NCBI RefSeq assembly: GCF_018798885.1
Contig: NZ_CP076361.1
Coordinates: 2,075,501 to 2,139,500, forward strand
DNA length: 64,000 nt
Reading direction: 5' to 3'
From: Gemmobacter fulvus
Lineage (GTDB): Bacteria; Pseudomonadota; Alphaproteobacteria; Rhodobacterales; Rhodobacteraceae
The translations under genes and the position numbers were made by a program. The stretch's first letter is position 1, and every line of letters starts with the position of its first letter. The notes below the pieces were generated by a model that saw nothing but the letters and a program-made list of their open reading frames with translations, was not told where the DNA came from and searched no databases. Positions 4,303-38,087 of this stretch are shown piece after piece.

Positions 4303-4322
4303 TCCGGTTTTGTTCCGTATTT

Positions 4323-5031: not shown

Positions 5032-5050
5032 GTTCAAAGAGCCCGAACCC

Positions 5051-10011: not shown

Positions 10012-10030
10012 CGTGACCTGGGCCGTGAGC

Positions 10031-10672: not shown

Positions 10673-10949
10673 CACCGTGTTCTGACCGATCCTTGCCCGG
10701 CACACACCATTTATAACGCGGAACGCGGGCGGGCGATACCTCACAGCCTGCAAACCCCGCGTCAGGCCGGGCGATTCCGGCGGTGCGCCGCCCATCCTTC
10801 TGCGCGGGGCACCTATACGGATGATAGGGGGCGCTTGCCGGTCAGCGGCGGTAAGAGCAGCCGGGGCCGCATTGCGGGCCTGCCCATCTGGTTGCGCGCA
10901 TTCCGCCTCTCGCGCGTGCCAGACGCCCGGAGCCTGGCTCCGGGCGGGG

Positions 10950-14035: not shown

Positions 14036-14114
14036 GTCAACTCCCCGAACACCACGGGAACCGACTATAGACGCCACAACCACAAGGAAAACACTATCTT
14101 ATGGACAGGTCCCG

Positions 14115-16148: not shown

Positions 16149-16212
16149 GGGCAGCGGGCCTCCGGCTGGCGTTTGGACAAGGCTAGCCGCAGCGTGCGAG
16201 TCTGGAAAGCAG

Positions 16213-16236
16213 AAATTCGACACTCATGTCGAATTT
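16213..16236. promoter_or_regulatory. Perfect palindrome between divergent flavoprotein and TetR genes (probable TetR operator)
   Basis: Arms AAATTCGACA (16213-16222) and TGTCGAATTT (16227-16236) are exact reverse complements around a 4-base spacer. The 145-bp intergenic gap serves both promoters, so a repressor bound here could control both genes. The size and symmetry fit a TetR-family operator. Confidence 0.7.
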
Positions 16237-16293
16237 AAAAAACAAGACTGTCAATTTTCTTGCTGCGCCGGGCGCAGATGCTATCCTGACGCC

Positions 16294-16908
16294 ATGAATG
16301 ATGTTCCTGACCGTGGCTGGCGCGGCTCTGCCGATCTGTGGCTTGATGCCGCCCATGCCCTGCTGCTGGAAGGCGGGGTCGAGGCGGTGAAAGTCGCGCC
16401 GCTTGCTGCGCGGCTCAATCTGTCGCGCACCAGCTTTTACCACCATTTTGCGGATCGGGATGCGCTGCTGGCAGCGCTGATCGCCCGCTGGCAGGCGCAG
16501 AACACCGCCAATCTGGTGGCGCGTTGCGAAGCCTATGCCGAAACCATTGCCGAAGCGGTGCTGAATGTCTTTGATTGCTGGATCGACGTCCGGCTGTTTG
16601 ACAGCGCAATGGATTTTGCCATCCGCAACTGGGCGCTGACCGCGCCGGATCTGGCGGACCTGTTGCAACAGACCGATCAGGTGCGTCTGGCTGCACTTTC
16701 CGCCCTGTTCCGCCGCTTCGGCTATGACGAGGCGCAGGCCGATACGCGGGCGCGGGTGATCTATCTGACGCAGGTCGGCTATATTTCGATGCGCAGCGCC
16801 GAAAGCCTTGAGGTGCGGCTGAAACGGATTCCGGCCTATGTGATGGCCTTTACCGGAACGGCGGCGACCGATCAGGAAATGGCGCGCTTTTCGGCGCGCC
16901 ATCTGTAA
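16294..16908 (+). CDS. TetR/AcrR-family transcriptional regulator
   Basis: 204-residue regulator. The N-terminal helix-turn-helix (ALLLEGGVEAVKVAPLAARL, then NLSRTSFYHHFADRDALLAA) is classical TetR; the C-terminal ligand domain is not assignable. The start ATG at 16294 lies about 58 bases after the intergenic palindrome. It is transcribed away from the flavoprotein gene, the usual layout of a local repressor and its target. Confidence 0.87.
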   Translation: MNDVPDRGWRGSADLWLDAAHALLLEGGVEAVKVAPLAARLNLSRTSFYHHFADRDALLAALIARWQAQNTANLVARCEAYAETIAEAVLNVFDCWIDVRLFDSAMDFAIRNWALTAPDLADLLQQTDQVRLAALSALFRRFGYDEAQADTRARVIYLTQVGYISMRSAESLEVRLKRIPAYVMAFTGTAATDQEMARFSARHL

Positions 16909-18699: not shown

Positions 18700-18789
18700 G
18701 GAGCAGTGGTCGAGTGGTCTAAGGCAACCGACTTGAAATCGGTCGGGCCAGAGATGGTCCCGTGGGTTCGAATCCCACCTGCTCCGCCA
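18700..18789 (+). tRNA. tRNA-Ser (anticodon TGA)
   Basis: 90-base gene. Acceptor arms GGAGCAG and CTGCTCC pair, CCA is encoded, the anticodon stem-loop ACCGA-CTTGAAA-TCGGT carries TGA, a long class II variable arm follows, and the T-loop GGTTCGAATCCC is standard. Its 3' end is the integration site of the element to the right. Confidence 0.95.
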
Positions 18790-18790
18790 C
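18775..18790 (+). repeat. attL, 3' end of tRNA-Ser
   Basis: The 16 bases CCACCTGCTCCGCCAC recur exactly at 28900-28915 and mismatch on both sides. Integration into a tRNA 3' end restores the tRNA, the usual behaviour of P4-type integrases. Confidence 0.85.
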
Positions 18791-20227: not shown

Positions 20228-20390
20228 CGCGGTCCTGCCGCTGCGGGTTCGGGCTCTCGGATGGCCTCAAATGGTTGTAAGCGGCACAGCGCGGGCACTT
20301 GATTGAAATCGTGCCGCTGAATGCGCCTGCTGTCAGTTTGAACAGCAGGCGGCGACATCCGCAACAGCGGATTTCAGTCCAGACAGTCAT
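20181..20390 (-). CDS. Com-like zinc-finger regulator
   Basis: 69-residue protein resembling phage Mu Com. Two Cys pairs (RCCGCRRLLFK and IKCPRCAAYN) form a zinc finger with the family's conserved LLFK and IKCPRC. Mu Com activates translation of the Mom DNA-modification gene by binding its mRNA. Here it lies between an adenine and a cytosine methylase, overlapping both (ATGA with the first, 47 bases with the second), so a similar translational control of the dcm-like gene is plausible but unproved. Confidence 0.78.
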   Translation of the reverse strand: MTVWTEIRCCGCRRLLFKLTAGAFSGTISIKCPRCAAYNHLRPSESPNPQRQDRDGKDASCGSSFPRKT

Positions 20391-21211
20391 GCCGCCTCAA
20401 TCACGAAGTTTGAGATGAGCAGCTCTGCGCGTGTCTTTGCCCCATCATTGGCGGTGCGGCTGATTGTGTAACTGGTGCGCACCTCGGTCAGATGGAAGCG
20501 TGCGAACAGGTCTCGGATCTCGGGCACATCATTGATCGACATGATGAAGCGGCCCTTGATGCTGCCCAGGACATCCGCCATCCGCCCGAAATCCTCGCGG
20601 CTGAACAGGGTGCGGCCATAGTCGCCCTCGCACCCCCAGTAGGGCGGATCGAGATAAAACAGTGTGCCTTCGCGGTCATAGCGCGGGATGAATTCGGCCC
20701 AGTCCAGGCATTCGATTGTCACCCCGGCCAAGCGGCTGTGCAAATCCTCAAGCATCGGCTCCAGAGTGGTCAGGTTGAAGCGCCCACCACGCTCTGTCTG
20801 CACCCCAAAGTTCCGCCCTGATACCTTGCCGCCAAAGGCGGTGCGCTGAAGATACAGGAAGCGCGCAGCGCGCTCGAGATCGGTAAGCGTGTCGGGATTT
20901 GTGTCGACCAGCCGATAGAACTCGGCACGCGTGGTCAGCTGGAATTTGAGCGTGTCGAGGAACTGCGGATAGTGGCGCTGAAGGATCCTGAACAAGGTGG
21001 CGATGTCGCGCCCCTTGTCATTGATCACTTCGCAGCGTGCGCGCGTGCTGCGGCGCAGGAAAATGCCGCCCATGCCGACAAAAGGCTCGGCATAGGCGGT
21101 GCATGGAGTGCGGTCGATGATGGCGCAGATCCGCTTGGCAAGGTTGCGCTTGCCACCCAGCCAAGGGGCGACAGGAAGAGTTGGTTCAACAGGCCTTAAA
21201 TCGGCGTTCAT
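20387..21211 (-). CDS. DNA adenine methylase (D12 class)
   Basis: 274-residue N6-adenine methylase of the Dam/D12 type. APWLGGKRNLAKRI (AdoMet-binding start), YAEPFVGMGGIFLRR (motif I) and LFYLDPPYWG (motif IV, DPPY) are present, with a C-terminal LLISNF. The ATG at 21211 fits the family start and has AGGA upstream; 15 more residues are in frame before it. No cognate endonuclease is visible. First gene of the dam-com-dcm operon. Confidence 0.9.
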   Translation of the reverse strand: MNADLRPVEPTLPVAPWLGGKRNLAKRICAIIDRTPCTAYAEPFVGMGGIFLRRSTRARCEVINDKGRDIATLFRILQRHYPQFLDTLKFQLTTRAEFYRLVDTNPDTLTDLERAARFLYLQRTAFGGKVSGRNFGVQTERGGRFNLTTLEPMLEDLHSRLAGVTIECLDWAEFIPRYDREGTLFYLDPPYWGCEGDYGRTLFSREDFGRMADVLGSIKGRFIMSINDVPEIRDLFARFHLTEVRTSYTISRTANDGAKTRAELLISNFVIEAA

Positions 21212-21407
21212 GGGTGTGTTCCTGATGTTGTGACAACAGGAACATATCAGGAACAAAGTGGGCTGTCATAGCCCCATGGTGCGGAGGTGATCTTTTTGGA
21301 TCGGTGCGGGAACCTAAGCCAGAGTGGATCTCGACCCTGGACGGGTTGTGGGTTCCGTTGATCGAATATAGCATATTCGTTGAGGATTCTAAGGATAGGC
21401 AGATACT

Positions 21408-23089: not shown

Positions 23090-23255
23090 CGCCAATATCC
23101 ATCCAATACTTTATTGAAGGATGGCGCAGGATGGTTATCGGCTTTTCACACCTTCAGCGCGTTTCTTTCAGATTGACAGAACCGGCATGCAAGACAGGGT
23201 TGCCCGATGGAAGCGGGGAGTGCTTTGATCGACGGCAAGTAGCTTGGGGAACGAA

Positions 23256-23846
23256 TTGACTAGAGAAGCTATTGTGGCCTTCGTCCTGATCGTCGTTCCA
23301 GCATCTGTATATGCCGAGGTTTGCACAACGGTGGGAACGTCCCCTTACTTCACCGGAGATGGCAATTTCGCGCTGCTAGAGCCAGCTTTTGAAGACTACG
23401 CTCACATGCTCGATGACGCCTGTGCCGCGTGGGGCTTCACAGCGCGGGATGAATGCGGGATTGTCACGCTTATGGGTGACGTGGGCTTGAATGCAATCGC
23501 GACACACTGCGATGAAATACCCGTGATCATATACAATCGACAGCTTTCTGGGATCGTAGGTGGTGACGGAGCCGAATTCGTTATCGCCCATGAACTTGGC
23601 CACCATTTCTGCGGCCATCTGGATCATCCATCAGATGACTTTGTGGCTGTCAGGGCAGAGGAACTTGAGGCAGATCGGTTTGCAGGCGCTACTCTTCGGA
23701 AGATGAACCGAAAACTGGAGCACATCTTGGATATCACGAGCATTTTCCCGGAAGAAGAGGGTGATACCCACCCCAGCAGGCCTTTGCGCGAGACGGCAAT
23801 TCGTGCGGGATGGATCAATCCTGAAACGGCGCTTGATTGTCGATAA
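23256..23846 (+). CDS. Secreted zinc metalloprotease-like protein
   Basis: About 196 residues. A signal peptide (AIVAFVLIVVPASVYA) precedes a domain with FVIAHELGHHFCGH, the HExxH zinc site, and a downstream EELEADRFAGA that supplies the third Glu ligand, as in M48/gluzincin-type peptidases. Cysteines suggest export. The start is uncertain: the TTG at 23256 has GGGGA five bases upstream, and a TTG at 23244 is also in frame. Why a satellite carries it is unclear; it may be cargo. Confidence 0.65.
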   Translation: MTREAIVAFVLIVVPASVYAEVCTTVGTSPYFTGDGNFALLEPAFEDYAHMLDDACAAWGFTARDECGIVTLMGDVGLNAIATHCDEIPVIIYNRQLSGIVGGDGAEFVIAHELGHHFCGHLDHPSDDFVAVRAEELEADRFAGATLRKMNRKLEHILDITSIFPEEEGDTHPSRPLRETAIRAGWINPETALDCR

Positions 23847-24220: not shown

Positions 24221-25540
24221 CTACCACCCCTCATAGCACGATGGGGGCAGGTTCGGCTGATCGGATGACCACCACGGCGCTTCATGACTTTCGCCCCGAA
24301 CCCACGCGGCGACTGACTTGCCGTCAAAGCGCAACCCTTTGTCCTTCTTCTCGAAGCCGAGGCCGATCATCGCGGCCTTCATGTTGGCATGGTGCCTCTT
24401 GTCCATGCCGTTCACATCATCGGCGTTGATGCCGACGATCTTCCAAGCATCGACAGCCCGTATCTTCATCGGACCTTCAGGGATGCGGTCAGCCAGCATT
24501 TCATGCCACGGCCCGAAGTCCGTTGCCGCGCGCGCAACCACCGCCGCAGCGGCCTTCAGATCGGCATCATCCAGCCACAGGGCTTCATCCGGTTCCCGCG
24601 CGACCGCTTCAGCCCATATCTGATCACGGATGGCCCGCACCCCAGCGGCATCGGCTTGGGTGACGGACACGGGCCAGAAGCGACGGTTTCCGGTGGTGTC
24701 GGTCAGGTAGGTCGTTTCATTCGTAGTGCCGAACAGGACGAACTGCCGACCGCGCGTGACCGGGTATCTGTCGAAAGCCAGCCGGGCGCGGTCATGGGTA
24801 GTGGTGATGAACGACTTCACGCGGTTGGCATCGCGCTTCCCGAGGCCGTCCAGTTCGGCCATTTCGACCACCCACGCGCCCGATGTCTTCTCAATCGTTA
24901 CCTTCGGATCAGCGCCGATCTCAAGCTGATCTGTGAACCAGCCGGGATCGTTGCAGAGGGCCTTCAGTAGCGACGACTTCCCCAAGTCCTGCGCCCCTTG
25001 CAGCACCAACATATGATCGAATTTGCAGCCCGGTTGTCGTGCGCGGCGCACGGCAGCACACAGCACCTTCCGACCAATCGCGCGATTCAGTGGTGTATCT
25101 TCGGACCCCGTGTAGTCAATCAACCAGCTATCGATCCGCGCTACCCCATCCCATTCCAGACCGTCCAGATACTGGCGAACCGGGTGGTAGGCGTTTCGCC
25201 TGCCGATCAGGGATATCGCATCGGCAATCTTGTCCTTGGCAGGCTCTTGGCCATTCCGCGCCCAGATCAGCGAAAATCGGATGTCAGACAGTATGTCATC
25301 TGTCATCACCGTGACACCATGCGACCCATGAAGTTCCAAATTGTCGGACAGCAGGTTACGCTTCACCGATTGCCGCCTGTCACGCAGGACGCCTTCAACT
25401 TCAAAGTCGAAGCGTGTCTCACCCGTCAGCGCAGTTTGACCGCGCGCGCGATGTTGTTCGAGATCGACCACCGTCGCCCCCTTCTTTGCCGGTGCGGCCT
25501 TACCTGTGTTCTCTATCCAGCCGGGAACATCATCCTGCAT
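24221..25540 (-). CDS. VapE/VirE-family (D5-like) replication helicase
   Basis: 439-residue protein with the virulence-associated E domain. The P-loop is LQGAQDLGKSSLLKALC, Walker B is WVVEMAELDGL and a sensor-like FVLFGTTNE follows, with NRRFWPV typical of the family. It is predicted to unwind DNA at the element's own origin, which lies directly beyond its 3' end. The common N-terminal primase domain is absent. The start overlaps the upstream gene by 11 bases, so it belongs to one operon running from the integrase end. Confidence 0.86.
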   Translation of the reverse strand: MQDDVPGWIENTGKAAPAKKGATVVDLEQHRARGQTALTGETRFDFEVEGVLRDRRQSVKRNLLSDNLELHGSHGVTVMTDDILSDIRFSLIWARNGQEPAKDKIADAISLIGRRNAYHPVRQYLDGLEWDGVARIDSWLIDYTGSEDTPLNRAIGRKVLCAAVRRARQPGCKFDHMLVLQGAQDLGKSSLLKALCNDPGWFTDQLEIGADPKVTIEKTSGAWVVEMAELDGLGKRDANRVKSFITTTHDRARLAFDRYPVTRGRQFVLFGTTNETTYLTDTTGNRRFWPVSVTQADAAGVRAIRDQIWAEAVAREPDEALWLDDADLKAAAAVVARAATDFGPWHEMLADRIPEGPMKIRAVDAWKIVGINADDVNGMDKRHHANMKAAMIGLGFEKKDKGLRFDGKSVAAWVRGESHEAPWWSSDQPNLPPSCYEGW

Positions 25541-26826: not shown

Positions 26827-27441
26827 TCAAAGGGAGAGGAATTGATCATACAATCGCATGACGTTTTTTAATTTATGCGGATCATCGCCTTTAGCCTTTG
26901 GTGGGCGATTAGCAGTAGATAGGGCAAACGCGTAAGTCGCTTGCTGGTAGGTTTTTCCGGTTAGCCGCAGCCCCTCAATTGCGATCCCTGTCATCGCAAC
27001 TTGCATAGGGTCTGCATATCGGCCTCGCCTTGACCGAACGCCCTCAAGCAATGTCGCCGCTTGGCCTGCTAGTGCGCCAATCTGCCGGTCGTCCTTAGTT
27101 CGGATTGCCTCTCGAAGCCCGCAGATAATGGCACGCGCAGCCTTAGTCGGTGCGCCACCTGTTTTTCCAGACCGTATGCGCAACCCCCACCCAGTCACGG
27201 GGCCACCGTCCAAGCCTTCAAGCACCAACGCATGCAGTGCCGTCACCACCCTATCGCGCGACAGGGCGACGAGCAGTTTTTTGGCATCACCTCTCTGAAG
27301 CCATCGGATGACCGCTATCCGGTTTTCCGCCCCTAAGTCCGACCACCACACAGGCGAGGCATCCCGATAACGCAGGGAGGCGCGAAGAGGACGCTGGGGG
27401 CTTCGCTCAGGATCACCGGCAACGTAATCATCGTCATCCAT
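26827..27441 (-). CDS. Hypothetical protein coupled to the integrase
   Basis: 204 residues. The ATG at 27441 shares bases with the integrase stop (TGATG), so it is translated from the integrase message. Basic and helical; segments ENRIAVIRWLQRGDAKKLLV and TYQQATYAFALSTANRPPK are visible without a known motif. It may regulate or accompany integration. No function is recognised. Confidence 0.6.
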   Translation of the reverse strand: MDDDDYVAGDPERSPQRPLRASLRYRDASPVWWSDLGAENRIAVIRWLQRGDAKKLLVALSRDRVVTALHALVLEGLDGGPVTGWGLRIRSGKTGGAPTKAARAIICGLREAIRTKDDRQIGALAGQAATLLEGVRSRRGRYADPMQVAMTGIAIEGLRLTGKTYQQATYAFALSTANRPPKAKGDDPHKLKNVMRLYDQFLSL

Positions 27442-28742
27442 CACCCGCGCCCCTGATTGATAGGCACCACCTTGCCTTTGGCCCCAGCGCCCAGCAGGAA
27501 GCCCGCCCATGCGGCCATCATGGCGCGGCGCTTCTCCACCATGTCGCCCCGGCGATAGGCGGCTTCGACTGCGTTGCTGATACGGTGGGCAAGCGCCACC
27601 TCGGCCATTTCGCCGGGGTAGGTAGTCCGCTCTGCCACCCAGTCGCGGAAGGTAGAACGCAGTCCATGCGGCACTGCTGGGCGTTTGTTGCGAGGGTCCA
27701 GATAGCCCGCGCCACCCTTAGCAACCGCAGTCTCGTGGATGCGGCGCATCGTGGCGGAAAGTGTCATGTCGCTCAACTGGCCCCCTCTGACAGCAGGGAA
27801 CACCTGCGGGTTGCCTTCCAGCTTGGGCAAGGCTTCCAGCATGGCTACGGCGGTGGGCGACAGGGGAACCCGATGTTCGCGCGCCATCTTTATGCGGGCC
27901 GCAGGGATAATCCACAGCGCGGCGTCAAAGTCTATTTCATTCCAAGTGGCCCCACGCACCTCCCCAGAACGGGCGGCAGTCAGGGCGGCAAACTCCACAG
28001 CCCGTGCGCCGAAGCCGTCACGGGTCCGCAGATCGGCAAACCATGCCGGGGCATCGCCCAGCGCAAGGGCGGGATGGTTGCCCTCGACAGCGATCTTGCC
28101 GGGTGCTGGCAGAAGTTCCTTCAGGTTGCCAGCCCAGCGCGCGGGGTTGTCTCCCATCCGATGCCCCGCAACAGTCGCCCAAGAAAGCACCGCCTCAACC
28201 CGCCCCCGCAGGCGTGACGCGGTTTCAGTCTTGCTCGCCCAGATCGGCTGCAATACCCGCAGCACGTCCTGCACCGTGATTTCTTGCACGGTCATCTTTC
28301 CCAGCTCCGGCATGGCGTAGGTTTGCAGAGTGTTGCGCCATTGGTCCTGATGTTTCTCATTCTTGAAAGCGTCCAGCTTCGCGGCGAGGGCCTTATCGAC
28401 GGCATCGGCAAAGGTCATACTACGACGGCGCGCCGCAATCAGGGCAGACCGCTTGGCCTTTCGATCTTCGACCGGATCGACACCCTGACGGATCAAGTCT
28501 TTGATGTCGCGCGCCCTCTCCCGCGCTTGGGCCAGCGTGACATCGGGATACCCGCCTATCCCGATTTCCCGGCGCTTGCCCCCGACCATCGCCCGCAAGA
28601 GCCAAGTCTTTCCACCAGACGGCAGAAGTTGCATCACAAGCCCCGACACCCCACCGACCGCAACAGTTTCACCTGCCCCCGTCCCTGAGTGCTTCAGACG
28701 CTTCACATCCAGCGGCCCAAGTTCAGCAGCAATCTTTGGCAT
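27441..28742 (-). CDS. P4-type tyrosine integrase
   Basis: About 433 residues with the N-terminal arm-binding domain typical of P4-like integrases (REIGIGGYPDVTLAQARERA) and the tyrosine-recombinase catalytic set: Arg in TAARSGEVRG, HGLR in PHGLRSTFRDW, His in LAHRISNAVEAAYRR and the Tyr in AAYRRGD. It cuts and rejoins the tRNA-Ser 3' end. The start at 28742 has AAGGG upstream; 28757 is an in-frame alternative. It sits 158 bases from attR. Confidence 0.92.
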   Translation of the reverse strand: MPKIAAELGPLDVKRLKHSGTGAGETVAVGGVSGLVMQLLPSGGKTWLLRAMVGGKRREIGIGGYPDVTLAQARERARDIKDLIRQGVDPVEDRKAKRSALIAARRRSMTFADAVDKALAAKLDAFKNEKHQDQWRNTLQTYAMPELGKMTVQEITVQDVLRVLQPIWASKTETASRLRGRVEAVLSWATVAGHRMGDNPARWAGNLKELLPAPGKIAVEGNHPALALGDAPAWFADLRTRDGFGARAVEFAALTAARSGEVRGATWNEIDFDAALWIIPAARIKMAREHRVPLSPTAVAMLEALPKLEGNPQVFPAVRGGQLSDMTLSATMRRIHETAVAKGGAGYLDPRNKRPAVPHGLRSTFRDWVAERTTYPGEMAEVALAHRISNAVEAAYRRGDMVEKRRAMMAAWAGFLLGAGAKGKVVPINQGRG

Positions 28743-28757
28743 TTTGACACCCTTCAT

Positions 28758-28915
28758 CTAACCCGCCAAAAAGGCTACTACTCGATGCGACAGGGTGCAA
28801 CAGCCTGCTAAAGCACGCTATGCAAATTCCTTCTATCATTCTGTTTTTTTATTTATTTTATGCGCCATGCTGCAAATTCATGCGACAGAAAAATGGCGGC
28901 CACCTGCTCCGCCAC
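28758..28915. repeat. attR region with 16-bp core and short flanking repeats
   Basis: The core CCACCTGCTCCGCCAC (28900-28915) duplicates the tRNA-Ser end. Inside it ATGCGACAG occurs at 28785-28793 and 28880-28888, and TGCAAATTC at 28821-28829 and 28871-28879, in an AT-rich stretch. These pairs are candidates for integrase arm or excisionase sites. Confidence 0.75.
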
Positions 28916-29229: not shown

Positions 29230-31098
29230 CTAAAAGTCAAAGAACGCGGACGTGTTTCCTGCCATAGTTTGCAGAAGAAGATCCCGATCAAGAAAGAGGT
29301 TCTTCATTTCGCAGCTCGTCTCGGCGATCAGCAGGCATCCATGGCATGCGGCGCCGTGGGTTGCCCGATCGCCGCTCCTATCGTCTGGTTCGTGATCGGC
29401 GCAAACGGGGTCATTTGAGCAAATCCGCAAACGTTCCAAGGCACTCTTGAGAATGTAGGCAAACCTTGGAGCCATGGCGACAAGCCCTCCAAGACTGCCC
29501 TGCGCACCAGCGCTAGCCGTATAAACAAGAATTCCGCAACGGTCGACGTCGCCGCCGCCGCGCGTGCTGGACAGCGCATATACGCGTTCCTTTAAAGAGC
29601 TGGCTGGATAGCCGCAGTCGAGGGCAATCTCAGCCATCAACGCGTGAGATATGCTGTGAAGAAGTACGTAAGCCGTTCCAGGATATGACGGCGCTTTCCC
29701 AGCAAATCGCTTTTGCCAGTGCCCGTATCCAGCAAGCAGCTTTTGATTCCGGATAGCCGTGAGCTCCTTTCGAAGCCATGCGGTAATCGCGGTGGCATCG
29801 AAATGGATGAAGATGCCTTCCCCAAACTGTTCGATCGCGGGCAACCAGTCTGCATCACGTGATATTGGGGCGCCGCGGACGCTCAATTGAATATCTTCGA
29901 TATCGCCGTCAGCTCCCGTCGGTGCCGCTTCAAATCGTGTGAACCCATAGAGGCATGATACCTCCCTCAGTCGATGCACCGCGATCAGGTTTTTGATCCC
30001 CGATAAGTCAATCCCGGCAGCGGGGTCGGCCCAAGCGTCTCTCGGAAGAGTCTGTGCAAAGAGCTTTGCCGTCGGATGATTCGCGCCGATTTCAGATCGA
30101 CCGCTGGCGAAAGTGTCGAACTCGGACAGCTTTGGTGAACGAGTTGCGTCGGTTTTTGCGCCCTCACGAATGCGCTGAAGCCTATCAAAAATGTCGTGGT
30201 CAGGATAAGGGCCAAGCGATGCCGATACCTTTGGATTGAATTTCTTTGCTTGAGCGATATCCTGAACTGTTTGAACGCTGGCCAGATCGCCTGTTAATTC
30301 ATCTACAAGCTGGCTGAGTTCATCCTCCTCAGTCGGCAGCGAAATCACCGTTTGGACCTGCGGGAAGTAGGTGTTCGTCGCGGTTCGAGTGAGCAACTTC
30401 AGGTTGTCCCCGCATCCTTCAGGGTCTCGGTCGAGCAGCCACGGACGCTCACCGCGGCATTTGCCTAGACGCCCGGGCTGGAAAGTGTCCTGCAGGGACA
30501 GACGGCTGCCGCATCCGCACACGACGCTGGTGTCTGCAGGGTCCGCGCTGGTTCCCTTTTCCTCTACCCACATCGGCTCATGGCATGCCCCCGATCCGTG
30601 CACGACCCAGCGCCAGTCAATGTCTTGCAGATGCCCTTTGTCGCATGCGCAAACGAAGCGGATCGGCGTCACATCGCTCTTCCGGCCGTCATCGTATTGG
30701 AACCTTCTGCGCCCCTTGCTATCGAGGTCTTGCCAACGGACCAACCGGCGACGCCGGATCGTGCTAGTCCCCAACGTGTTCGTTTCGACCTGCTCGCAGA
30801 TGAACCATGTCGGGAAGACAGGCGCGGAGACTCCACGCGGCACGCCGTCTCTTAAATCAACGGATGTCGGCGGTGTCCTCAACGTCAGGCTGGCTGCCGG
30901 ATCAAGGCGCCCTTGCTCTTTCAAAATCTGCTCGAGGCGCTGCGTCAGACGCGGCTCTGGAAGAGTCTTGAAGGCGCCGCCTTTCATGTCCCACTGTTCT
31001 AGTCCGCCCACTACAACAGATCGAGTTGGCAGGTCGATCATTGCCCCCGGACCGAAGGTGGAAATTAGCTGGCTGAGACGCTGGGCATTCTTGGTCAT
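29230..31098 (-). CDS. drmB: DrmB-like DUF1998 protein (DISARM-type defence)
   Basis: 622 residues. The N-terminal QLISTFGPGAMIDLP and the zinc-binding FVCACDKGHLQDIDW match DISARM DrmB. A second Cys group VVCGCGSR follows, and the C-terminal DUF1998 region has ALSSTRGGGDVDRCGILVYT and CHGCLLIAETSCE. In DISARM, DrmA and DrmB form a complex that engages incoming phage DNA. The start overlaps the drmA stop (ATGA), giving the canonical drmA-drmB order. No drmC (phospholipase D-type) gene follows before the island edge. Confidence 0.85.
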   Translation of the reverse strand: MTKNAQRLSQLISTFGPGAMIDLPTRSVVVGGLEQWDMKGGAFKTLPEPRLTQRLEQILKEQGRLDPAASLTLRTPPTSVDLRDGVPRGVSAPVFPTWFICEQVETNTLGTSTIRRRRLVRWQDLDSKGRRRFQYDDGRKSDVTPIRFVCACDKGHLQDIDWRWVVHGSGACHEPMWVEEKGTSADPADTSVVCGCGSRLSLQDTFQPGRLGKCRGERPWLLDRDPEGCGDNLKLLTRTATNTYFPQVQTVISLPTEEDELSQLVDELTGDLASVQTVQDIAQAKKFNPKVSASLGPYPDHDIFDRLQRIREGAKTDATRSPKLSEFDTFASGRSEIGANHPTAKLFAQTLPRDAWADPAAGIDLSGIKNLIAVHRLREVSCLYGFTRFEAAPTGADGDIEDIQLSVRGAPISRDADWLPAIEQFGEGIFIHFDATAITAWLRKELTAIRNQKLLAGYGHWQKRFAGKAPSYPGTAYVLLHSISHALMAEIALDCGYPASSLKERVYALSSTRGGGDVDRCGILVYTASAGAQGSLGGLVAMAPRFAYILKSALERLRICSNDPVCADHEPDDRSGDRATHGAACHGCLLIAETSCEMKNLFLDRDLLLQTMAGNTSAFFDF

Positions 31099-34000
31099 GA
31101 GAGATCATCCGCATTTGCGATCGTATTTCCGTGAGGATCACGGACCTTCAAGGTGACGTTGGGCTCGACGTCGCGCATTGAACGGCCCGCAACAAAGCGG
31201 CGATGAGGTTCAGCCAGATTGGCGATCTCTGGCTCAAGCGGCATGTGCAATAGTCGATGAGGACTTTTCTTTTTGGAATAAGCGAACGCATTACCGCCGG
31301 CGGCCTGCTCATCGGAGGTTTCAATCCAGGCATCCAAAATATCGTCAATCAGCTTTGACAAAGCCGCTCGGCCGCCGGCAATCATTCTCTCAGGCGCGCG
31401 ATCAACAATAGAATCTCGGACCAGATTGCGTATCCATAAATTGTTCTTCAGTTCGTTGACGGCGACATCCGGGGTAAGCGCGCTATCTACATGACGCGCT
31501 GCAGCAACCACGACCGCGGCCAACGCACGATCAAGAGCTCGGGCCGCCCAAGGTGTGACACTCGTTGCTTCTACAGCGCGATAAAAGGTGCGGTGGAATT
31601 GTCCGAACTGTTCGAAATGCATGCGGTCCCGTGGCTTATGCAGGTTTAGAACGGCAAGCACGATGCCGGGTCGGGTATGATCTCGGCCCACGCGGCTCGT
31701 TGCCTGGATGTACTCAGCAGCAGTCTTTGGCTGACCTTGTACCACCATGAGCCCCAGGCGCGTGATATCGAGTCCGACCGATATCATGTTCGTCGCCAAT
31801 GCGATGTCGACAGTTTCGGCGTCCCGGCCGAATACTGCCTCAAGGCGTTGTTTTGCTTTCGCGACCTCGTCGGTTGATACCCGGGAGGTAAGCTCCAACG
31901 GTTCCTTGACACGGCGGTCGGCGAATGGGCTGTCGGCCGGCTCAACCCTGCGGCGTTGGGCACCATAGCGGGCCGAGCGATCCCGGACTTCGTCTTCGAC
32001 GATCCGGCGGGCGCCACCCAGTTCGCGCAATGCGTTGAAGTAGCAGATCGCTGTCATGAACGGATCGGCAGGGTTTACGTGTTTGCTATCTGCCGAAAGA
32101 TTAGCTTCGTAAGCTGCTTGTGCTGCCGCAACGAGCGTGGTCAAGGAACGCAGGAAGACCAGCTTTGGGCCCCGCCCTTGGGCGGCAATACCGAGGTAGA
32201 GCCTTGCAGCGTTTGTGGTTGTCGGAACAGTGCGGGCAAAAAAGCTGTCGATCCGATCAATTCCGGGTGGCGGGAAGATGCTAGTGCTGCTGCGATCAAA
32301 CAACGCCGAGATTTGATCTGCTGCACGCCTGACCGTTGCGGTCGAAGCCACTATCTTTGGGCGAATACGAGTTTCCCCGGAACCTCGGGATGCGAGTTGA
32401 TCGATTGCAGCCTCGTAAAGTCCCGCGACAGTCCCAAGCGGCCCTGCGATAAGGTGTAGTTCATCCTGAATGATGAGATCGGGCGGATCCAGCGACCAGC
32501 CATTGCTTAGTGGACTTCCCTGACCAGGCTCAGCGGCGCCGTAAAACCCGACATCGTTTTGGAACCGGTCAACGTGCCCGAAGAATGCGCCAGTTTCGCC
32601 AACCCAAGGCAACGCCGCGAACTTATCGACCGTGGCGATCAGGAACGCTGGCAGCCGACGATAGATCGGCTCATCGACAGTCAGGACAGGCAAGGGTCGG
32701 CTTCTGCTGAAATCACAACTTGTATTGACACAGCGGATTTCAAGATTGGTCGGAGCATGCATGTTCGGGGTGCATGAAAACGAAGACGGCTTGAACTCTG
32801 TCCCGCACCACGGGCACGCCTTTAGCGGTGCCGGCGCACGTTTGTCGCGTCCGCTTTGGTAGCGCCGCACCCGCCCTACAGCGGTTGTTTCATCGGTGTT
32901 GCCCTTGCCACCGAGTTTATTCGGCGAGGCGTCTGAACCGACCCACAAGCCGATCTCGATAGGCCAGTCACCAAGCAAGCGTCGGCCATCAACGTCGATG
33001 TTTTTGGCGTCAGTGCGCATGAGTTCGAGCGCGCAGACGACACCGGCCGCACGGGCGAGCTGGTCAAGGGTAAGAAGGCGAAGAGTGTAGCGCATGATCA
33101 CCGCCACACCGGCTCCAAGCACGCCGGAGGCCCCGAGCCGACGATGGGCGATGACGAGTGCCGCGAGGCCGAGATAGGCTTCGGTTTTGCCGCCGCCTGT
33201 CGGAAAGAAAAGGAGGTCCGCCGTTTCACGGTCAACGTGGCGGCGATCAACCAAGCCCGCCAAGTTAAGCAGCACAAACGCGAGCTGGAATGGGCGCCAC
33301 TGCGGCTCGGCCAAGCCAGCAGGTTCACCTGTCGCGCCAGCAACACGGCGTCGCGCAGCCATCGCCACCGCGAGGTTCATGAAGCGGAATGCAGCCCGCG
33401 CCTGGGAATCAGTCGCAAGCATTCCGATACCGGTTGCAATCCGCACCTTCGCCTTTGCCATGTCCGCGATCAAACGTTCTGCCGTTTCCTTTCGCCGTGC
33501 GGGCAAACCGCCGAGCTTTCCACGCTCAACATCGATCCAGGCACCATACAGATTTGGCAGATCGGCTAGGGCCGATGTTAGGTCCGCGCCATTGCCCTCT
33601 GCCAGCTGCGCGAGAGTTTCCATCCCGAACGAGACATGCGTTTTCAAGTCCGCGTCTTCGTTCGGCGCGACGCGTTCGACCTCGGCCGATGGTAGAGGAT
33701 CGGTCCAAACTCGAGTGATACCTTGATCGTTGCCCACGGGCGCGTCCCAGCCCGCAGCGGCATTGCGGCCCACCGCCCATTCGTTGAGATCGCGATAGTG
33801 CAGATCGGCGACCCGCAAATCCCAATCCTGCGCACGATAGCCGGATAGGTCACGCCGCGGCCGAAAACTGCTTGCTGATACCAGTTCCAGCCGCGCTTGA
33901 AAGGCGTAGCTGACATCAGAATAGAAGCGATGCACTGTTGCGCGTCGATTGACGAGGAACACTGTCAACGCGCGCACGCGCTCGGTTTGCCCATCTGGCG

Positions 34001-34640
34001 TCGTGTAACTGAAAAGGCGCGAATGCGTTTCGAGCACGAGGCCACCGCCGCGCCTTTGCTCGGCGGCGCTTTCCGGCACGACGACTGGGGAACTGCGGCC
34101 TTCCGTCACCGTCAAGGCAACGACACGCTTTTTCGGACTGCGAACCCAATCAACCATTGGTCGCTCGATCCGCTTCTTCTTTCCCTCTTCGTCGAATTGC
34201 TCGACCTTGGGCTCAGGGAGAAGCACGTCCTCCGGCAATTGCGGTTCGGTGCGATAGTCCCCCCATGACACGTGTGCCTCGATTTCGGTGACATCGGGAT
34301 CGAGCAACACGGTCAAGCCGATTGAGGATGGAAGGAAGCGCCTTCGTGTAACCGGTGCCTCGGGCTCCTCGTTGTCGGCAGCCGCACCGTTCGTGCCATC
34401 AGAATCCGGCTCCTCGACATCAAGTTCCATCTCTTCCTGAGCAGACGGGTCGGCGTCGTCGTTGTCGCCATCGAGACCGAGTGGGTCTTCGGCAGGGGCT
34501 ATGAAACCAGCGAGATACCAGCGCGCAGGGTTCTCGTTCAGGCGTTCTGTCGCGAGGTCAGCATCCTTAGGGCCGGGACCGATTAGGTCGCGCCGGAAGA
34601 CGTTTACGATCTGAGCGCGCACTTGCTCCGATGTCATCAT
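31095..34640 (-). CDS. drmA: DrmA-like SF2 helicase (DISARM-type defence)
   Basis: 1181 residues. An acidic low-complexity stretch lies near residues 55-90. Walker A is FFPTGGGKTEAYLG (about 480), the DExH-type box is IIQDELHLIAGP (about 725), a motif III-like KIVASTATVRR follows, and motif VI is YIQATSRVGRD (about 980). The layout, length and the downstream DUF1998 gene match DrmA of DISARM. It is coupled by a 4-base overlap to the upstream PIN-like gene. The reading frame is intact. Confidence 0.87.
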   Translation of the reverse strand: MMTSEQVRAQIVNVFRRDLIGPGPKDADLATERLNENPARWYLAGFIAPAEDPLGLDGDNDDADPSAQEEMELDVEEPDSDGTNGAAADNEEPEAPVTRRRFLPSSIGLTVLLDPDVTEIEAHVSWGDYRTEPQLPEDVLLPEPKVEQFDEEGKKKRIERPMVDWVRSPKKRVVALTVTEGRSSPVVVPESAAEQRRGGGLVLETHSRLFSYTTPDGQTERVRALTVFLVNRRATVHRFYSDVSYAFQARLELVSASSFRPRRDLSGYRAQDWDLRVADLHYRDLNEWAVGRNAAAGWDAPVGNDQGITRVWTDPLPSAEVERVAPNEDADLKTHVSFGMETLAQLAEGNGADLTSALADLPNLYGAWIDVERGKLGGLPARRKETAERLIADMAKAKVRIATGIGMLATDSQARAAFRFMNLAVAMAARRRVAGATGEPAGLAEPQWRPFQLAFVLLNLAGLVDRRHVDRETADLLFFPTGGGKTEAYLGLAALVIAHRRLGASGVLGAGVAVIMRYTLRLLTLDQLARAAGVVCALELMRTDAKNIDVDGRRLLGDWPIEIGLWVGSDASPNKLGGKGNTDETTAVGRVRRYQSGRDKRAPAPLKACPWCGTEFKPSSFSCTPNMHAPTNLEIRCVNTSCDFSRSRPLPVLTVDEPIYRRLPAFLIATVDKFAALPWVGETGAFFGHVDRFQNDVGFYGAAEPGQGSPLSNGWSLDPPDLIIQDELHLIAGPLGTVAGLYEAAIDQLASRGSGETRIRPKIVASTATVRRAADQISALFDRSSTSIFPPPGIDRIDSFFARTVPTTTNAARLYLGIAAQGRGPKLVFLRSLTTLVAAAQAAYEANLSADSKHVNPADPFMTAICYFNALRELGGARRIVEDEVRDRSARYGAQRRRVEPADSPFADRRVKEPLELTSRVSTDEVAKAKQRLEAVFGRDAETVDIALATNMISVGLDITRLGLMVVQGQPKTAAEYIQATSRVGRDHTRPGIVLAVLNLHKPRDRMHFEQFGQFHRTFYRAVEATSVTPWAARALDRALAAVVVAAARHVDSALTPDVAVNELKNNLWIRNLVRDSIVDRAPERMIAGGRAALSKLIDDILDAWIETSDEQAAGGNAFAYSKKKSPHRLLHMPLEPEIANLAEPHRRFVAGRSMRDVEPNVTLKVRDPHGNTIANADDLS

Positions 34641-35149
34641 GATTTCTTTGTGCCTTCTTCAAGAACGAATTCACCCAAAACTCGGTTCAGCCATTTAGTA
34701 GTGTGTTTTTCGTCGAGTCGTTTTGGGTTGAACCCAGCCTCTGACAGTAAGCGTTCAAGCGAAATCATGCGGTCACGGCACTTCATTCGAACACCAAAGC
34801 GGAGGCTGGCCTTGTCAGGACCGCACAAGACCCATGCATCCGCCCTCGTTAGCGCGTGCGCCCATAATGACTGCTCTCCGATATCGAGAGCGATGCCATC
34901 TGCATTTAACAGCACATTTGCACGTTGGACCTCGCTCACACTGTGAACAGCCCTGAGGTCTTTCCGAAGCTGGGCAGCATCAATGTTTTCTTCGGGTCTA
35001 CGCCGCTGAAATCCTGTCTGCGTTTCGACAACGCAGTCTTCAACCGTTTCGACATTGTATCCACCCGACAGTGCTCCCCAAGCCGCCCACTTGTGGGTGT
35101 CGAGTATGGTCATAGTGTCGACCAGGACAGGTCCGGTGTGCCGCGCCAT
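34637..35149 (-). CDS. PIN-like nuclease-fold protein in the defence operon
   Basis: 170 residues. LVDTMTILDTHKW, an early acidic VEDCVVET, then LDIGEQSLWAHAL and WVLCGPDKASLRFG followed by DRMISLERLLSEAG reproduce the acidic-residue spacing of PIN-like domains (Asp near residue 11, Glu and Asp later). PIN domains cut RNA, many as toxins. It lies 6 bases after the XRE-ImmA gene and overlaps drmA, so it is part of one transcription unit. It could be an effector replacing DrmC or a toxin guarded by the protease. Both are inference. Confidence 0.7.
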   Translation of the reverse strand: MARHTGPVLVDTMTILDTHKWAAWGALSGGYNVETVEDCVVETQTGFQRRRPEENIDAAQLRKDLRAVHSVSEVQRANVLLNADGIALDIGEQSLWAHALTRADAWVLCGPDKASLRFGVRMKCRDRMISLERLLSEAGFNPKRLDEKHTTKWLNRVLGEFVLEEGTKKS

Positions 35150-35155
35150 GGAACC

Positions 35156-36262
35156 TCACAAGCCATCTGGCTTTGGCACGCCATGAGTGGCGAAGAGTTC
35201 AATCAGGTCGTCAACCGTTTGGTCCAATAACCCCGCTGCCCGTCGCGCTGAAATACGACCCTGATCAACAGCAAGACCGATCACTTCCGCGAATGGCCTA
35301 GAGAACATCGGCGGTGTCGCCGCTTGTCCATCATTGCGACCATTGTTTCGCAGCGCCGCGTCGGGCACGGCGCGCGCAGCAGCTGGCTTCAGCCGGTCGA
35401 GCGCAACGAGCCGCCATTTCAGCGCCGAGGCGGTCACCAGTAGCGCATCCGCGGCAGCATTTAGCCGGGCGGGAAGCTCCTGCTCAGGGATTGCCGCCCA
35501 ATCGCCAAAGCCATCGAGGATCGCAGCGGGCATCAGCACGGCCGAGGCAAAATTGTTAGCCAGTTGCTCGACGCGGTTGCCGCCGGTCTCGCGCGCCTCT
35601 TCCGAATGTTCTGGCGGCATCGCGTCCCAGGTGAGGATGTGGAACAACTCGTGCGCAAGGTCGAAATGACGACGACCGACCACCTCGTGGCGGTTTATCA
35701 AAACCACATCGAGTTCGGGCAAGCGGCAGGCCGCGCCGGAAATTCCGTCGAAGGCATCGACGTGCAAGACGAGGATGCCGAGTTCACGCTCCATCACCTC
35801 GGCAAGGCGAACGGCTGGGATATCGCCAAGCTTGAATTCAGCGACGAAGCGTTCGCCCGCGTCCATGGCGTCCTCAAAGTGCGAGCCCTTGTGTAGGCCG
35901 AGCGCGCGGCGCAGCAGGGGCGCCTCTCGTCCCACGTGAGGGGCGATGGAGCGGAACGCGGCGATCCAGCGACCGGCGTTGCGCTCATAAGCGCCGAGGC
36001 GCTGCGGACCAACATTGGTCTGTCTCCATGAAAACCGGCCTTCGCCGACCAGCAGGAAGGGATCGGTGAAATAGTCGAGCGACGCACCCAGCTTTTCGAC
36101 TGCAAGTACCAGTTCCTCGGCCGTGACGCGGCGTTCGCCGGTCTCGATGGCCGATACGGTTTGCCGATCCTTGAATCCGAACATGCGCGCCAGATCGTCT
36201 TGGCTGAGCTTTCGCTCTTCGCGTAGCGCCTTGATCCGCGGTCCGATGAAATTCGCTGACAT
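35156..36262 (-). CDS. XRE-family regulator fused to ImmA/IrrE metallopeptidase
   Basis: 368 residues. The N-terminal helix-turn-helix has IKALREERKLSQDDLARMFG and RQTVSAIETGERR. The C-terminal ImmA/IrrE peptidase has the zinc site FDLAHELFHIL. Such fusions sense a trigger, cleave a repressor or themselves, and control a neighbouring toxin or defence gene. The ATG at 36262 is supported by GGAGG seven bases upstream. A 9-bp inverted repeat lies just upstream. It precedes the PIN-like gene, a pairing that resembles toxin-antitoxin modules. Confidence 0.85.
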   Translation of the reverse strand: MSANFIGPRIKALREERKLSQDDLARMFGFKDRQTVSAIETGERRVTAEELVLAVEKLGASLDYFTDPFLLVGEGRFSWRQTNVGPQRLGAYERNAGRWIAAFRSIAPHVGREAPLLRRALGLHKGSHFEDAMDAGERFVAEFKLGDIPAVRLAEVMERELGILVLHVDAFDGISGAACRLPELDVVLINRHEVVGRRHFDLAHELFHILTWDAMPPEHSEEARETGGNRVEQLANNFASAVLMPAAILDGFGDWAAIPEQELPARLNAAADALLVTASALKWRLVALDRLKPAAARAVPDAALRNNGRNDGQAATPPMFSRPFAEVIGLAVDQGRISARRAAGLLDQTVDDLIELFATHGVPKPDGL

Positions 36263-36286
36263 AGGGCACCTCCGACCGCTGATGTA

Positions 36287-36322
36287 TTCTTGCAAAGTGA
36301 CGATTGCAAGAAAATCTTGCGA
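36287..36322. promoter_or_regulatory. Inverted repeat upstream of the XRE-ImmA gene (probable operator)
   Basis: TTCTTGCAA (36287-36295) and TTGCAAGAA (36304-36312) are exact reverse complements with 8 bases between; a related half-site TCTTGCGA follows at 36315-36322. It lies 25-60 bases before the XRE start, right for autorepression of the regulator-PIN-drmAB unit. Confidence 0.65.
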
Positions 36323-36327
36323 TCTGG

Positions 36328-36741
36328 TTACGCATCCACGCCCGGTGAAGACGAGCCAGAAAGCGACGCCCTGCCCATCCTCCAGGCAGATGGGCTGAGA
36401 ACGGCCCTCCGACGTGGCGCAGCTTCATATACCAGCATCGACATGGGATCGGAGTTCATCTTGGAACCTACGGCACGGTCAAAATCGTCGAGGGTCTCCC
36501 ACATCCCGACGTTCACGAAAGAGATGTAGGTTTCAGACTTCCAGAGTGACTTGTCGTTCTCGAGTTCGCTCGGTTCCATTTGCCAAGTGATCTTCTCAAA
36601 GAAGTCTGGCCCTTCGACCCTGCTCAGAAACTCGCCGATCAAGCCTGCTGCGTTGTTGAGCTTGAGTGTCGAACTCCAAAACTGGATAAAATCACGCTCC
36701 TTTTCTGGAGTTATCCGCCAATTAATCAGGACAATAATCAT
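36328..36741 (-). CDS. Small ABM-like (dimeric alpha-beta barrel) protein
   Basis: 137 residues. The N-terminal strand MIIVLINWRITPEKERDFIQ, the middle YISFVNVGMWETLDDFDRAV and the length resemble antibiotic-biosynthesis-monooxygenase-type dimeric barrels. The start overlaps the stop of the methylase stub (ATGA), so it was co-translated with the methylase before the IS arrived. The basic, Ser/Pro-rich tail after about residue 108 looks unstructured. No such protein belongs to the described DISARM core. Its role is unknown. Confidence 0.6.
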   Translation of the reverse strand: MIIVLINWRITPEKERDFIQFWSSTLKLNNAAGLIGEFLSRVEGPDFFEKITWQMEPSELENDKSLWKSETYISFVNVGMWETLDDFDRAVGSKMNSDPMSMLVYEAAPRRRAVLSPSAWRMGRASLSGSSSPGVDA

Positions 36742-37238
36742 TCATTCTCTCCTTCCAATTCTGCATCCTCATCCTCCCCATCGTCCACCGCCACCAACCC
36801 GGCAGCACGTTCTTCGGCGGCGCGGGTAGCGTTCAGGGCGAGGAGGCGGGCGAGAACTTCGTCCTTGAAGTCGGACGGCCAATCGAGACGGGTCTTGGGC
36901 GTTTTTCCCTCGTCAGCATCCTGATCGATGAACTCGGGTGCGGCGCGGTCGGCCAGATCGTTCCAGCCCCTCGCATCGTCTTCGGATGAGGCGCCACGCG
37001 CATAGGCACGAAGCACTGCGACATCCATTTCATGGTGTAGCGTGCGCAGGCGGGCGATGTCGGCGGCGTTTTCGCTGCGCGCATGAAAGCGATTGTAGGT
37101 CTTCGTCAGGCCCTGGTTGCGTGTGATCATCAGTTGGGCCCGGAATGTGTTATAGGCTTGGCCTACCGCTTCGACGGCGGGGTCTATTCTAAAATAGGCA
37201 GGGAATGGGAAAGTGCGGAAGCAGTCGGATGGAGTGTA
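36738..37238 (-). pseudogene. drmMI: C-terminal stub of a DrmMI-like DNA adenine methylase, cut by the IS
   Basis: About 166 residues remain in frame from the IS edge to the stop. They read SDCFRTFPFP, AVGQAYNTFRAQLM, LTKTYNRFHARSE and LHHEMDVAVLRAYARG, then WPSDFKDEVLARLLALN, the characteristic C-terminal end of large Eco57I-class/DrmMI methylases. An internal ATG at 37130 would make a 130-residue product, but the family residues upstream of it show that it is a fragment. The catalytic half is not found on the far side of the IS within this window. Loss of the methylase would remove host-DNA marking if it belonged to this system. Confidence 0.75.
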
Positions 37239-37299
37239 GGCCGTGTTGACAAAAGGGATTCACGGGGCGCTCTGAACGTGATTCAAGCTGGTATCTGCG

Positions 37300-37731
37300 A
37301 TGGAGACCAGCTTGGCACGAGACCTGATGTCGGACGATGAATGGGCGTTTCACGAACGCTTCATCCTGGCCGTCCGCGCACCGAACGGGCGCAAACCTAT
37401 GAACCATCGTCTTGTTCTGGATGGGATTTTCTGGATAGCGCGCACAGGTTCTCCGTGGCGTGACCTGCCGGAGGAGTTCGGCAAGTGGTCGTCTGTCTAC
37501 CGCCAGTTCCGGCGCTGGACCCTGGCTGGGCTGTGGGAAGGGATACTGGAGGCCTTGAACGAGAGCGGGGTGGTTCCTGCGGCCTTGCAGATGATCGACA
37601 GCACCGTGGTCCGCGCCCATCATCAGGCAGCGGGCGCTAAAGGGGGACTCCGCGACAAGGTTTTGGCCGTTCGCGAGGTGGCTTCACGACCAAGATCCAC
37701 CTCCGCGTCAATGGCGCAGGCCTGCCCATGA
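37300..37731 (+). CDS. IS transposase, first frame (OrfA)
   Basis: 143 residues beginning MSDDEWAFHERFIL after a short lead, with the DUF4096-type N-terminal helix-turn-helix and the first catalytic Asp in MIDSTVVRAHH. The frame leaves the conserved sequence after GAKGG. A slippery AAAGGGGGA near 37638 permits a -1 shift into the second frame, restoring family sequence TPRQGFGRSRGG. Without the shift the product lacks the rest of the DDE site. Confidence 0.85.
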   Translation: METSLARDLMSDDEWAFHERFILAVRAPNGRKPMNHRLVLDGIFWIARTGSPWRDLPEEFGKWSSVYRQFRRWTLAGLWEGILEALNESGVVPAALQMIDSTVVRAHHQAAGAKGGLRDKVLAVREVASRPRSTSASMAQACP

Positions 37732-38087
37732 GGTCGGACATCACGCCGGGCCAGACATCGGACTATCTGGGCTTCAACCTCATCATGGACGACAACCTGC
37801 CCGAGCCGAGCGTCCTGCTGGCAGATCGCGGCTATGACTCTGACAAGCTTCGAGAAACCATGGAGGGACGCAACGTCGTGCCAGTGATCCCCATGCGCAA
37901 GTCCCGCAAGCTGCGCGTGGCCGTGGACCGCACCCTCTATCGGCTGCGCAACCTCGTCGAGCGCTGTTTCAACAAGCTGAAGAACGCCCGCCGCGTCGCC
38001 ACCCGCTACGACAAAACCGCAGAGAGCTTCTTGGGCTTCATCGACATCACCTCGATCCGCCTCTGGCTCCGCCATTTGTCAACATGA
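37728..38087 (+). CDS. IS transposase, second frame (OrfB)
   Basis: 119 residues from the in-frame ATG, but the conserved sequence begins earlier in this frame (about 37643), so it is normally made as a frameshift fusion with OrfA. It carries the second catalytic Asp in LLADRGYDSD and the Glu in RNLVERCFNKLK, completing the DDE triad. It ends at the right terminal repeat. Confidence 0.85.
   Translation: MRSDITPGQTSDYLGFNLIMDDNLPEPSVLLADRGYDSDKLRETMEGRNVVPVIPMRKSRKLRVAVDRTLYRLRNLVERCFNKLKNARRVATRYDKTAESFLGFIDITSIRLWLRHLST

Follow-up and report, generated by a model that had tools for sequence, protein, structure and literature searches.

A predicted XRE-ImmA/PIN toxin-antitoxin module between drmMI and drmA in a DISARM lineage without drmC, from Gemmobacter fulvus and other bacteria

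The DISARM defence genes drmA and drmB of Gemmobacter fulvus, which lie in a 64,000-nucleotide stretch of contig NZ_CP076361.1 (positions 2,075,501 to 2,139,500 of the forward strand, here called the window), are preceded in the same orientation by two genes, xre and pin, of which the first encodes a fusion of an XRE-type helix-turn-helix (HTH) with an ImmA/IrrE zinc-peptidase and the second a PIN-fold protein. We read this pair, with a probability of about 0.6, as a RosmerTA-like toxin-antitoxin (TA) module, made up of an XRE-ImmA antitoxin and autorepressor and a PIN-fold RNase toxin, which stands at the drmMI/drmA junction of a class-1 DISARM lineage lacking drmC and would switch xre-pin-drmAB. 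What can be read directly in the sequences is the pair itself, its recurrence in that slot, its stand-alone life, a palindrome over a promoter-like site, and the overlaps of pin with drmA and of drmA with drmB; half of DISARM is probably under separate control in one bacterial lineage.

The pair and its slot in a drmC-less DISARM lineage

Both domains of the proposed fusion were found as folds. The XRE-ImmA protein passes the cut-off of Peptidase_M78 and matches the PADLOC model RmrA (7.3e-17); its HTH resembles CapH in fold, and C.AhdI and C.BclI by sequence and by fold, while its peptidase resembles CapP and PprI, CapP being the nearest ImmA fold. The PIN-like identity given in the initial annotation held as well, as AlphaFold predicts a PIN fold for the window protein (pLDDT 90) that matches VapC toxins, at an identity to VapC chains of about 9-14%, and its acidic residues (D11, E42, D89, E92 and D112) are invariant in 22 of 23 sequences, the exception being the protein of locus L008 (14001-14516), with glycine in place of D112. 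Sequence searches with PIN gave one chance match against the PDB (E 0.53), nothing useful against Pfam and PHROGs, and none against phage records. The ratio of non-synonymous to synonymous substitution rates (dN/dS) is low for both xre and pin.

The pair was found between drmMI and drmA in 10 loci, where slot, order and orientation are constant and xre, pin, drmA and drmB are all near full length, a recurrence that rules out a chance neighbourhood. Besides the window, these loci belong to an uncultured Rhizobiales (L004), a 19-kb contig labelled Streptomyces AcH 505, which may be a contaminant (L005), Acidocella (L006), plasmids of Methylocystis (L007), Acidibrevibacterium (L008) and Sinorhizobium meliloti (L009), and the genomes G627 (L039), G490 (L040) and G1104 (L114), the last from the family of the window host; the named hosts of this lineage are mostly Alphaproteobacteria. 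Full-length drmD and drmMI follow each other in the same order in L004, L006, L007, L039 and L114, which hold all DISARM class 1 genes except that for DrmC; L009 has a full-length drmMI too, and drmD is full length in 8 of the 9 pair loci other than the window. The overlap of pin with drmA measures 4 bases in the window, L004, L005, L007, L008 and L039, and 1 base in L009; in the pair-less loci L029, L031 and L033 it is drmMI that overlaps drmA by 4 bases.

How often DISARM carries the pair is a separate matter. Six of the 10 loci (L004-L009) came from the PIN query, so the set does not represent an unbiased frequency, while L039, L040 and L114 emerged from drmA-driven searches with locus comparison. 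These drew on overlapping samples of 398, 385 and 390 genomes and, at E ≤ 1e-100, gave 32 drmA loci from 30 distinct genomes; contig ends truncate two of these loci, L018 and L120, and of the 30 that could be assessed only 4, the window among them, have the pair (likewise 4 of the 16 above the curated DrmAS cut-off). L068, counted as pair-less, shows upstream of its drmA a likeness to XRE confined to the HTH (61 residues, E 5e-6), and no PIN match. Among plasmids, 54 records match drmA and 3 of these match PIN. Relatives of PIN were found in 5 of 72,556 plasmid records, three loci in genome contigs, one in viral contigs and, in the class sample, the window genome and G261 alone when the PIN alignment is used (2 of 385, E ≤ 1e-6), to which a single-protein search adds a weak partial match in G192 (E 7.5e-5, 26%). 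When mapped onto a 30-row drmA tree, the label of the pair clusters and requires at least three changes, hence repeated gain, or gain with losses, and L029, the sister of the pair-bearing L040, lacks the pair. The pair is a feature of one drmA lineage and not of DISARM generally, and the association of drmAB with the pair, expected to recur in homologous loci, is regular within that lineage and rare over DISARM as a whole.

DrmC was not matched in any tested locus of this lineage. Queries from L034 (PADLOC DrmC, E 1.3e-128) and L035 found no tblastn match in any of the 10 pair loci, nor in seven members of their drmA branch that lack the pair (L029, L030, L031, L033, L059, L060 and L115), and every one of the seven loci tested from the other branch is matched (L036, L037, L058 and L110-L113), as are L034 and L035, L032 lying outside this test; a genome-wide search with the L034 protein was empty, having been run without a positive control. 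The initial annotation placed the PIN protein in the position of DrmC, and of this it stands that none of the 10 pair loci gave a DrmC match; a direct swap is rejected, because DrmC-less members without the pair exist in a largely DrmC-less branch and the pair is therefore no simple replacement. A gene of L007 annotated as phospholipase D (PLD) family was considered as a DrmC, and it has no PADLOC, Pfam or tblastn match. Since passages of PMC9142583 describe DrmC as non-essential and often missing, its lack alone does not exclude DISARM.

The pair is also found outside DISARM. No drm genes accompany it in the stretches read on a plasmid of Rhizobium (L010), on a Burkholderia plasmid (L011/L042), in the viral contig L028, beside open reading frames (ORFs) that we named methylase- and terminase-like, and in G261 (L041, 9200-14505), where a DSR2 gene follows about 100 bases after it (PADLOC Dsr2, 1.5e-160) and where we read relaxase- and TraG-like ORFs alongside. 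In viral contigs found by the XRE-ImmA alignment a PIN-like ORF comes directly after in 16 of 17, the exception being L085; on both the XRE and the PIN tree the stand-alone L041 and L010 fall among the DISARM-borne pairs, single branches being weakly supported. These stand-alone settings, on plasmids, in viral contigs and ahead of a DSR2 gene, mark the pair as a mobile RosmerTA-like module, and it may serve as a switch for more than one defence system. Several viral loci (for instance L075:4715-6928, L077:4312-6567 and L084:4267-5682) show after xre-pin an ORF of about 420-760 amino acids (aa), which may be a further cargo of the switch; five such ORFs were without a Pfam match, and two of three compared with PHROGs match phrog_37634, whose function is unknown.

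Such mobility invites two other explanations. The first is that the TA pair stabilizes mobile DISARM islands or plasmids by post-segregational killing, with no sensing of phage; three of the DISARM pairs are plasmid-borne, and stand-alone pairs are found on two plasmids typed as conjugative and beside the relaxase- and TraG-like genes, yet a stabilizing TA need not sit between drmMI and drmA, joined by a start/stop overlap and with drmAB behind its operator, as it does in 10 loci, and we hold addiction unlikely. The second is that a mobile TA module merely hitch-hiked into a tolerant junction without functional tie to DISARM, being found elsewhere and in a slot that takes other genes too. Pair-less Ensifer L030 has there a gene of 299 aa, which the 283-aa slot gene of L004 resembles by eye, and the drmMI/drmA gap of Thiodictyon L032 (8419-9896) holds another TA-like set, in which a 106-aa ORF is accompanied by an MqsA-type antitoxin and a SecB-like protein (below cut-off). 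In pair loci, too, the genes that separate drmMI from xre vary, from the 377-aa 'PLD-family' gene of L007 to those of 252 aa in L040, 162 aa in L009 and, by eye, 207 and 218 aa in L039 and L114, with an ankyrin gene on the opposite strand in L006 and the ABM-like ORF in the window. We consider this explanation improbable; it sits poorly with the identical slot, order and orientation of the pair in all 10 loci, with the three or more label changes on the drmA tree, and with the low dN/dS of both genes. At the other end of the operon, ORFs beside drmB in L005, L006, L030, L031, L039, L114 and the window gave no PADLOC match.

The candidate operator before xre and the proposed switch

Directly before xre lies a palindrome that is conserved upstream of xre in relatives and that we regard as a candidate operator (Table 1). 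The window holds one perfect match, which is also the sole match at up to 3 mismatches, where shuffled windows give a mean of 0.22, and at up to 2 mismatches the 4.68-Mb genome has it in a single place. Within the 150 bases upstream of xre, the 10 DISARM pair loci carry it with at most 1 mismatch in nine cases and at most 3 in all (L040 having 3, and L009 two sites at up to 2), as do, at up to 3, 3 of 4 stand-alone loci and 12 of 16 viral loci, with L085 left out and L071 included with only 126 upstream bases; in each of the 25 loci with such a site, up to 2000 random 150-base stretches never equalled its match. Over the whole of the DISARM-pair loci, matches at up to 2 mismatches lie solely upstream of xre (9 loci), and 18 pair-less DISARM loci (359,497 bases) yield one weak match. 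A promoter-like TTGCA(A/T)-N17-TAnnnn overlies the palindrome, its second hexamer having TA as its first two bases in all 10 DISARM loci and in 22 of the 25 overall, and in L007 and L008 a divergent DUF2188 gene stands just upstream. Because palindrome and promoter-like site directly precede xre, the genes xre-pin-drmA-drmB would probably form an autorepressed transcription unit of their own, apart from drmD-drmMI. In front of drmD, a PHD-type antitoxin sequence is found in L007 (3834-4031) and L114 (528-665), and an annotated ribbon-helix-helix/PIN pair in L008 (3827-4510), so that TA-type control may extend to the drmD-drmMI half as well.

The switch would work as follows: (i) the XRE part binds the palindrome and represses xre-pin-drmA-drmB, whereby DrmAB would be made separately from DrmD-DrmMI, in the manner of the controller (C) proteins of restriction-modification (R-M) systems; (ii) a signal of infection or damage, plausibly single-stranded DNA (ssDNA) as for CapP and PprI, would activate the ImmA peptidase; (iii) the peptidase would then remove the XRE part or the antitoxin function; (iv) and finally, DrmAB would rise and PIN be freed, to cleave RNA and halt the cell if DrmAB should fail to clear the phage. 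The ssDNA signal is proposed because ssDNA activates PprI and CapP, stimulating repressor cleavage (excerpts of PMC10904395), and because DrmAB binds DNA with a 5′ overhang (a passage of PMC9142583). The initial annotation had thought of PIN and ImmA as a suicide branch triggered when DrmAB fails; the anatomy, with its own operator and promoter and an ImmA fold nearest CapP, suggests a switch of drmAB at least as much. Taken further, DISARM would here be non-constitutive, with a fused repressor-protease, perhaps sensing the ssDNA that DrmAB binds too, that silences drmAB and the PIN RNase and releases both on infection, restriction coming first and arrest if it fails, and with loss of the methylase tolerable without self-attack since DrmAB is kept off; this extension we consider doubtful.

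Less probably, the pair is a regulator and nothing else, XRE-ImmA delaying or inducing DrmAB as C proteins or CapH/CapP do, and PIN being minor or dispensable rather than an abortive effector. The confinement of the operator to the front of xre and the likeness of the HTH to C.AhdI and C.BclI would fit this, as would L008, which retains all four genes with its D112G change, and the state of the modification genes: in 5 of the 10 pair loci (window, L005, L008, L009 and L040) either drmD or drmMI is disrupted or absent, with drmA and drmB intact in all 10, a loss that repression of DrmAB would make tolerable. In pair-less class-1 loci such breaks number 2 of 15 (L032, whose drmD is cut by the locus end, and L034; L035, L038 and L115, as well as all loci without a class-1 drmMI, are excluded from the 15), a contrast noticed post hoc and not significant (p = 0.075), and sequencing errors may account for part of the breaks in draft genomes. 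Against a dispensable PIN stand its otherwise invariant acidic residues and the fact that pin trails xre in stand-alone settings where there is no DrmAB.

The reading of the pair as a TA switch of DISARM, in turn, has the following against it, beside the biased origin of the 10 loci, the 4 in 30 of the survey and the pair-less L029 reported above. Binding, cleavage, toxicity and action on phage are predicted from sequence and fold. At up to 3 mismatches the operator was not found in L028 (best 6) or in 4 of the 16 viral loci, and since stand-alone pairs carry it too, it is part of the module and not of DISARM. The promoter is a consensus reading with the spacing fixed by us at 17, and the -10 hexamer of the window agrees with TATAAT at 3 of 6 positions only. 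PADLOC gave no match for the PIN protein, its RmrT models not having been checked, and PIN activity is probably dispensable in L008, given the glycine at D112, the drmMI of this locus being split as well, by an IS5-family transposase. Finally, most of the conservation in the window stems from selection that preceded the insertion of an insertion sequence (IS), described next.

The truncated locus of the window

Transcription in the window locus runs on the minus strand from the drmMI remnant through the ABM-like ORF, xre, pin and drmA to drmB (Table 1), with 4-base ATGA overlaps between the remnant and the ABM-like ORF, pin and drmA, and drmA and drmB, and 6 bases from the stop of xre to the start of pin. 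The genes, coordinates and couplings of the initial annotation, with its fusion, its ABM-like ORF and its drmMI end, were all confirmed, and by their scores against NF038324 and NF038325 drmA and drmB are genuine DISARM genes. The start of xre is probably the ATG at 36262; an alternative TTG at 36295, which opens a longer ORF, falls within the operator.

Table 1. Features of the DISARM locus, with positions in the window
Feature	Position	Strand	Remark
drmB (DUF1998/MZB protein)	29230-31098	minus	NF038324 DrmB_fam 520 bits vs cut-off 240, E 9e-156; PADLOC DrmB
drmA (DISARM helicase, DrmAS type)	31095-34640	minus	NF038325 1086 bits vs cut-off 950
pin (PIN-fold protein, 170 aa, predicted RNase toxin)	34637-35149	minus	
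xre (XRE-ImmA fusion, HTH and zinc-peptidase; predicted antitoxin/autorepressor)	35156-36262	minus	
Promoter, sigma70-like, TTGCAA-N17-TACATC	36281-36309	minus	Overlies the operator; consensus reading
Palindromic operator (candidate), TCTTGCAA-N8-TTGCAAGA	36288-36311		Conserved upstream of xre in relatives
ABM-like small ORF	36328-36741	minus	ABM 19.4 bits, under Pfam cut-off 23.1
drmMI remnant, last ~150 codons	36738-37241 (C-terminal end ORF 36738-37130)	minus	
IS5-like transposase ORFs	37300-38087	plus	DUF4096 and DDE_Tnp_1_2 above cut-off

As far as the searches show, the modification half of this DISARM, drmD and most of drmMI, is gone from the genome. The PADLOC DrmMI model aligns in the window over its positions 1229-1323 of 1347 (E 2.5e-23), and only residues 1160-1300 of the 1310 of the L007 DrmMI match the locus (36786-37241, 65% identity). 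Genome searches with the L007 proteins found no close copy, giving for DrmMI, besides the remnant, only a match of 32% on contig C5, and for DrmD matches of 34% and 44% on C5 and of 25% elsewhere; these further matches (25-44% identity) lie mostly in another system on C5. Because drmMI is cut to its end and neither gene has a close counterpart elsewhere in the genome, the locus is a truncated DISARM, and the view of it as an intact variant was not borne out: of class 1 it has DrmA and DrmB, and a near-whole DrmMI, DrmD and DrmC were not found. IS5-like ORFs adjoin the break point of drmMI, and a simple search found no IS terminal repeats.

For the window copy, and without competing with the readings above, there is thus a serious though less than even prospect of a dead remnant, in which neither defence nor regulation matters without drmD and drmMI. 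The remnant of about 150 codons, the lack of a close drmD in the genome and the IS5-like ORFs at the break favour this; on the other side none of xre, pin, drmA and drmB is interrupted and the operator match is perfect, and L114 and L004 fall outside the argument. DISARM without its methylase is reportedly toxic, according to its original description.

The other system on C5 (L090, C5:175000-193372) belongs to the YprA family and reads, in minus-strand ORFs at 2134-8538, 8540-13549 and 13479-16430, with a DrmD-like helicase of 983 aa, a type IIG/DrmMI-like methylase of 1669 aa and a DruE-like helicase of 2134 aa with an MZB domain among its genes; it resembles the ARMADA systems described in parts of PMC12458937. 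A rescue of the window DISARM by this system was considered; there is no sign of cross-talk, and the system appears to be separate.

At lower window positions than drmB, 16 bases from the 3′ end of a tRNA-Ser gene (18700-18789), at 18775-18790, recur at 28900-28915, just past an integrase gene (27441-28757), and this repeat pair probably bounds an integrated element of about 10 kb, which at its far end borders on the DISARM remnant. Inside the element a second ImmA-like ORF (23244-23846, plus strand), with weak capP/RmrA matches (best E 3e-5), lies near two other genes, one for a D12-class DNA methylase (20387-21256), the other VapE-like (24221-25540).

Relation to known systems

In summary, we have here known parts in a real, recurrent and apparently unreported arrangement; among the matches listed from open-licence PMC literature, no description of xre-pin placed within DISARM was found. 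If the reading is correct, it would add another case of a TA module serving as a control part of a larger defence system, the pair preceding a DSR2 gene elsewhere as well, and an operator-bearing XRE-ImmA/PIN module before drmAB makes both the regulation of DISARM and its avoidance of self-attack accessible to experiment.

The original description of DISARM is said to give drmD-drmMI-drmA-drmB-drmC as the order of class 1, and likewise an order for class 2. The pair loci share with class 1 the full members drmA and drmB, and five of them the complete drmD-drmMI order, and they differ in having xre-pin with its own operator between drmMI and drmA, and no drmC match. In CreTA and similar TA modules the toxin is coupled to the state of a second defence system; the idea of such a coupling is common to both, whereas there is no indication here of DISARM components restraining PIN. 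With VapBC the pair shares the PIN fold and its acidic active-site residues, the antitoxin being XRE-ImmA instead of VapB-type and the identity to VapC low.

The nearest relatives of the pair as a whole are RosmerTA (RmrA and RmrT) and the D25-PIN pairs of NetFlax, in which an XRE-ImmA antitoxin also stands next to a toxin-like gene; passages of PMC10440598 already contain the association of ImmA with PIN and describe RosmerTA toxins as diverse. The present pair differs in being embedded in another defence operon, upstream of its core genes, with a PIN protein unmatched by PADLOC and a TA role that is predicted. The CBASS regulators CapH-CapP, and DdrO-PprI, combine the same XRE HTH and ImmA/IrrE peptidase folds in two genes, while here they form one fused chain that would control a toxin together with DrmAB. 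The C proteins of R-M systems, lastly, place an XRE HTH on a palindromic operator and control restriction apart from the methylase, as would be the case here, with the difference that the protein described above has in addition a peptidase domain and a PIN partner.

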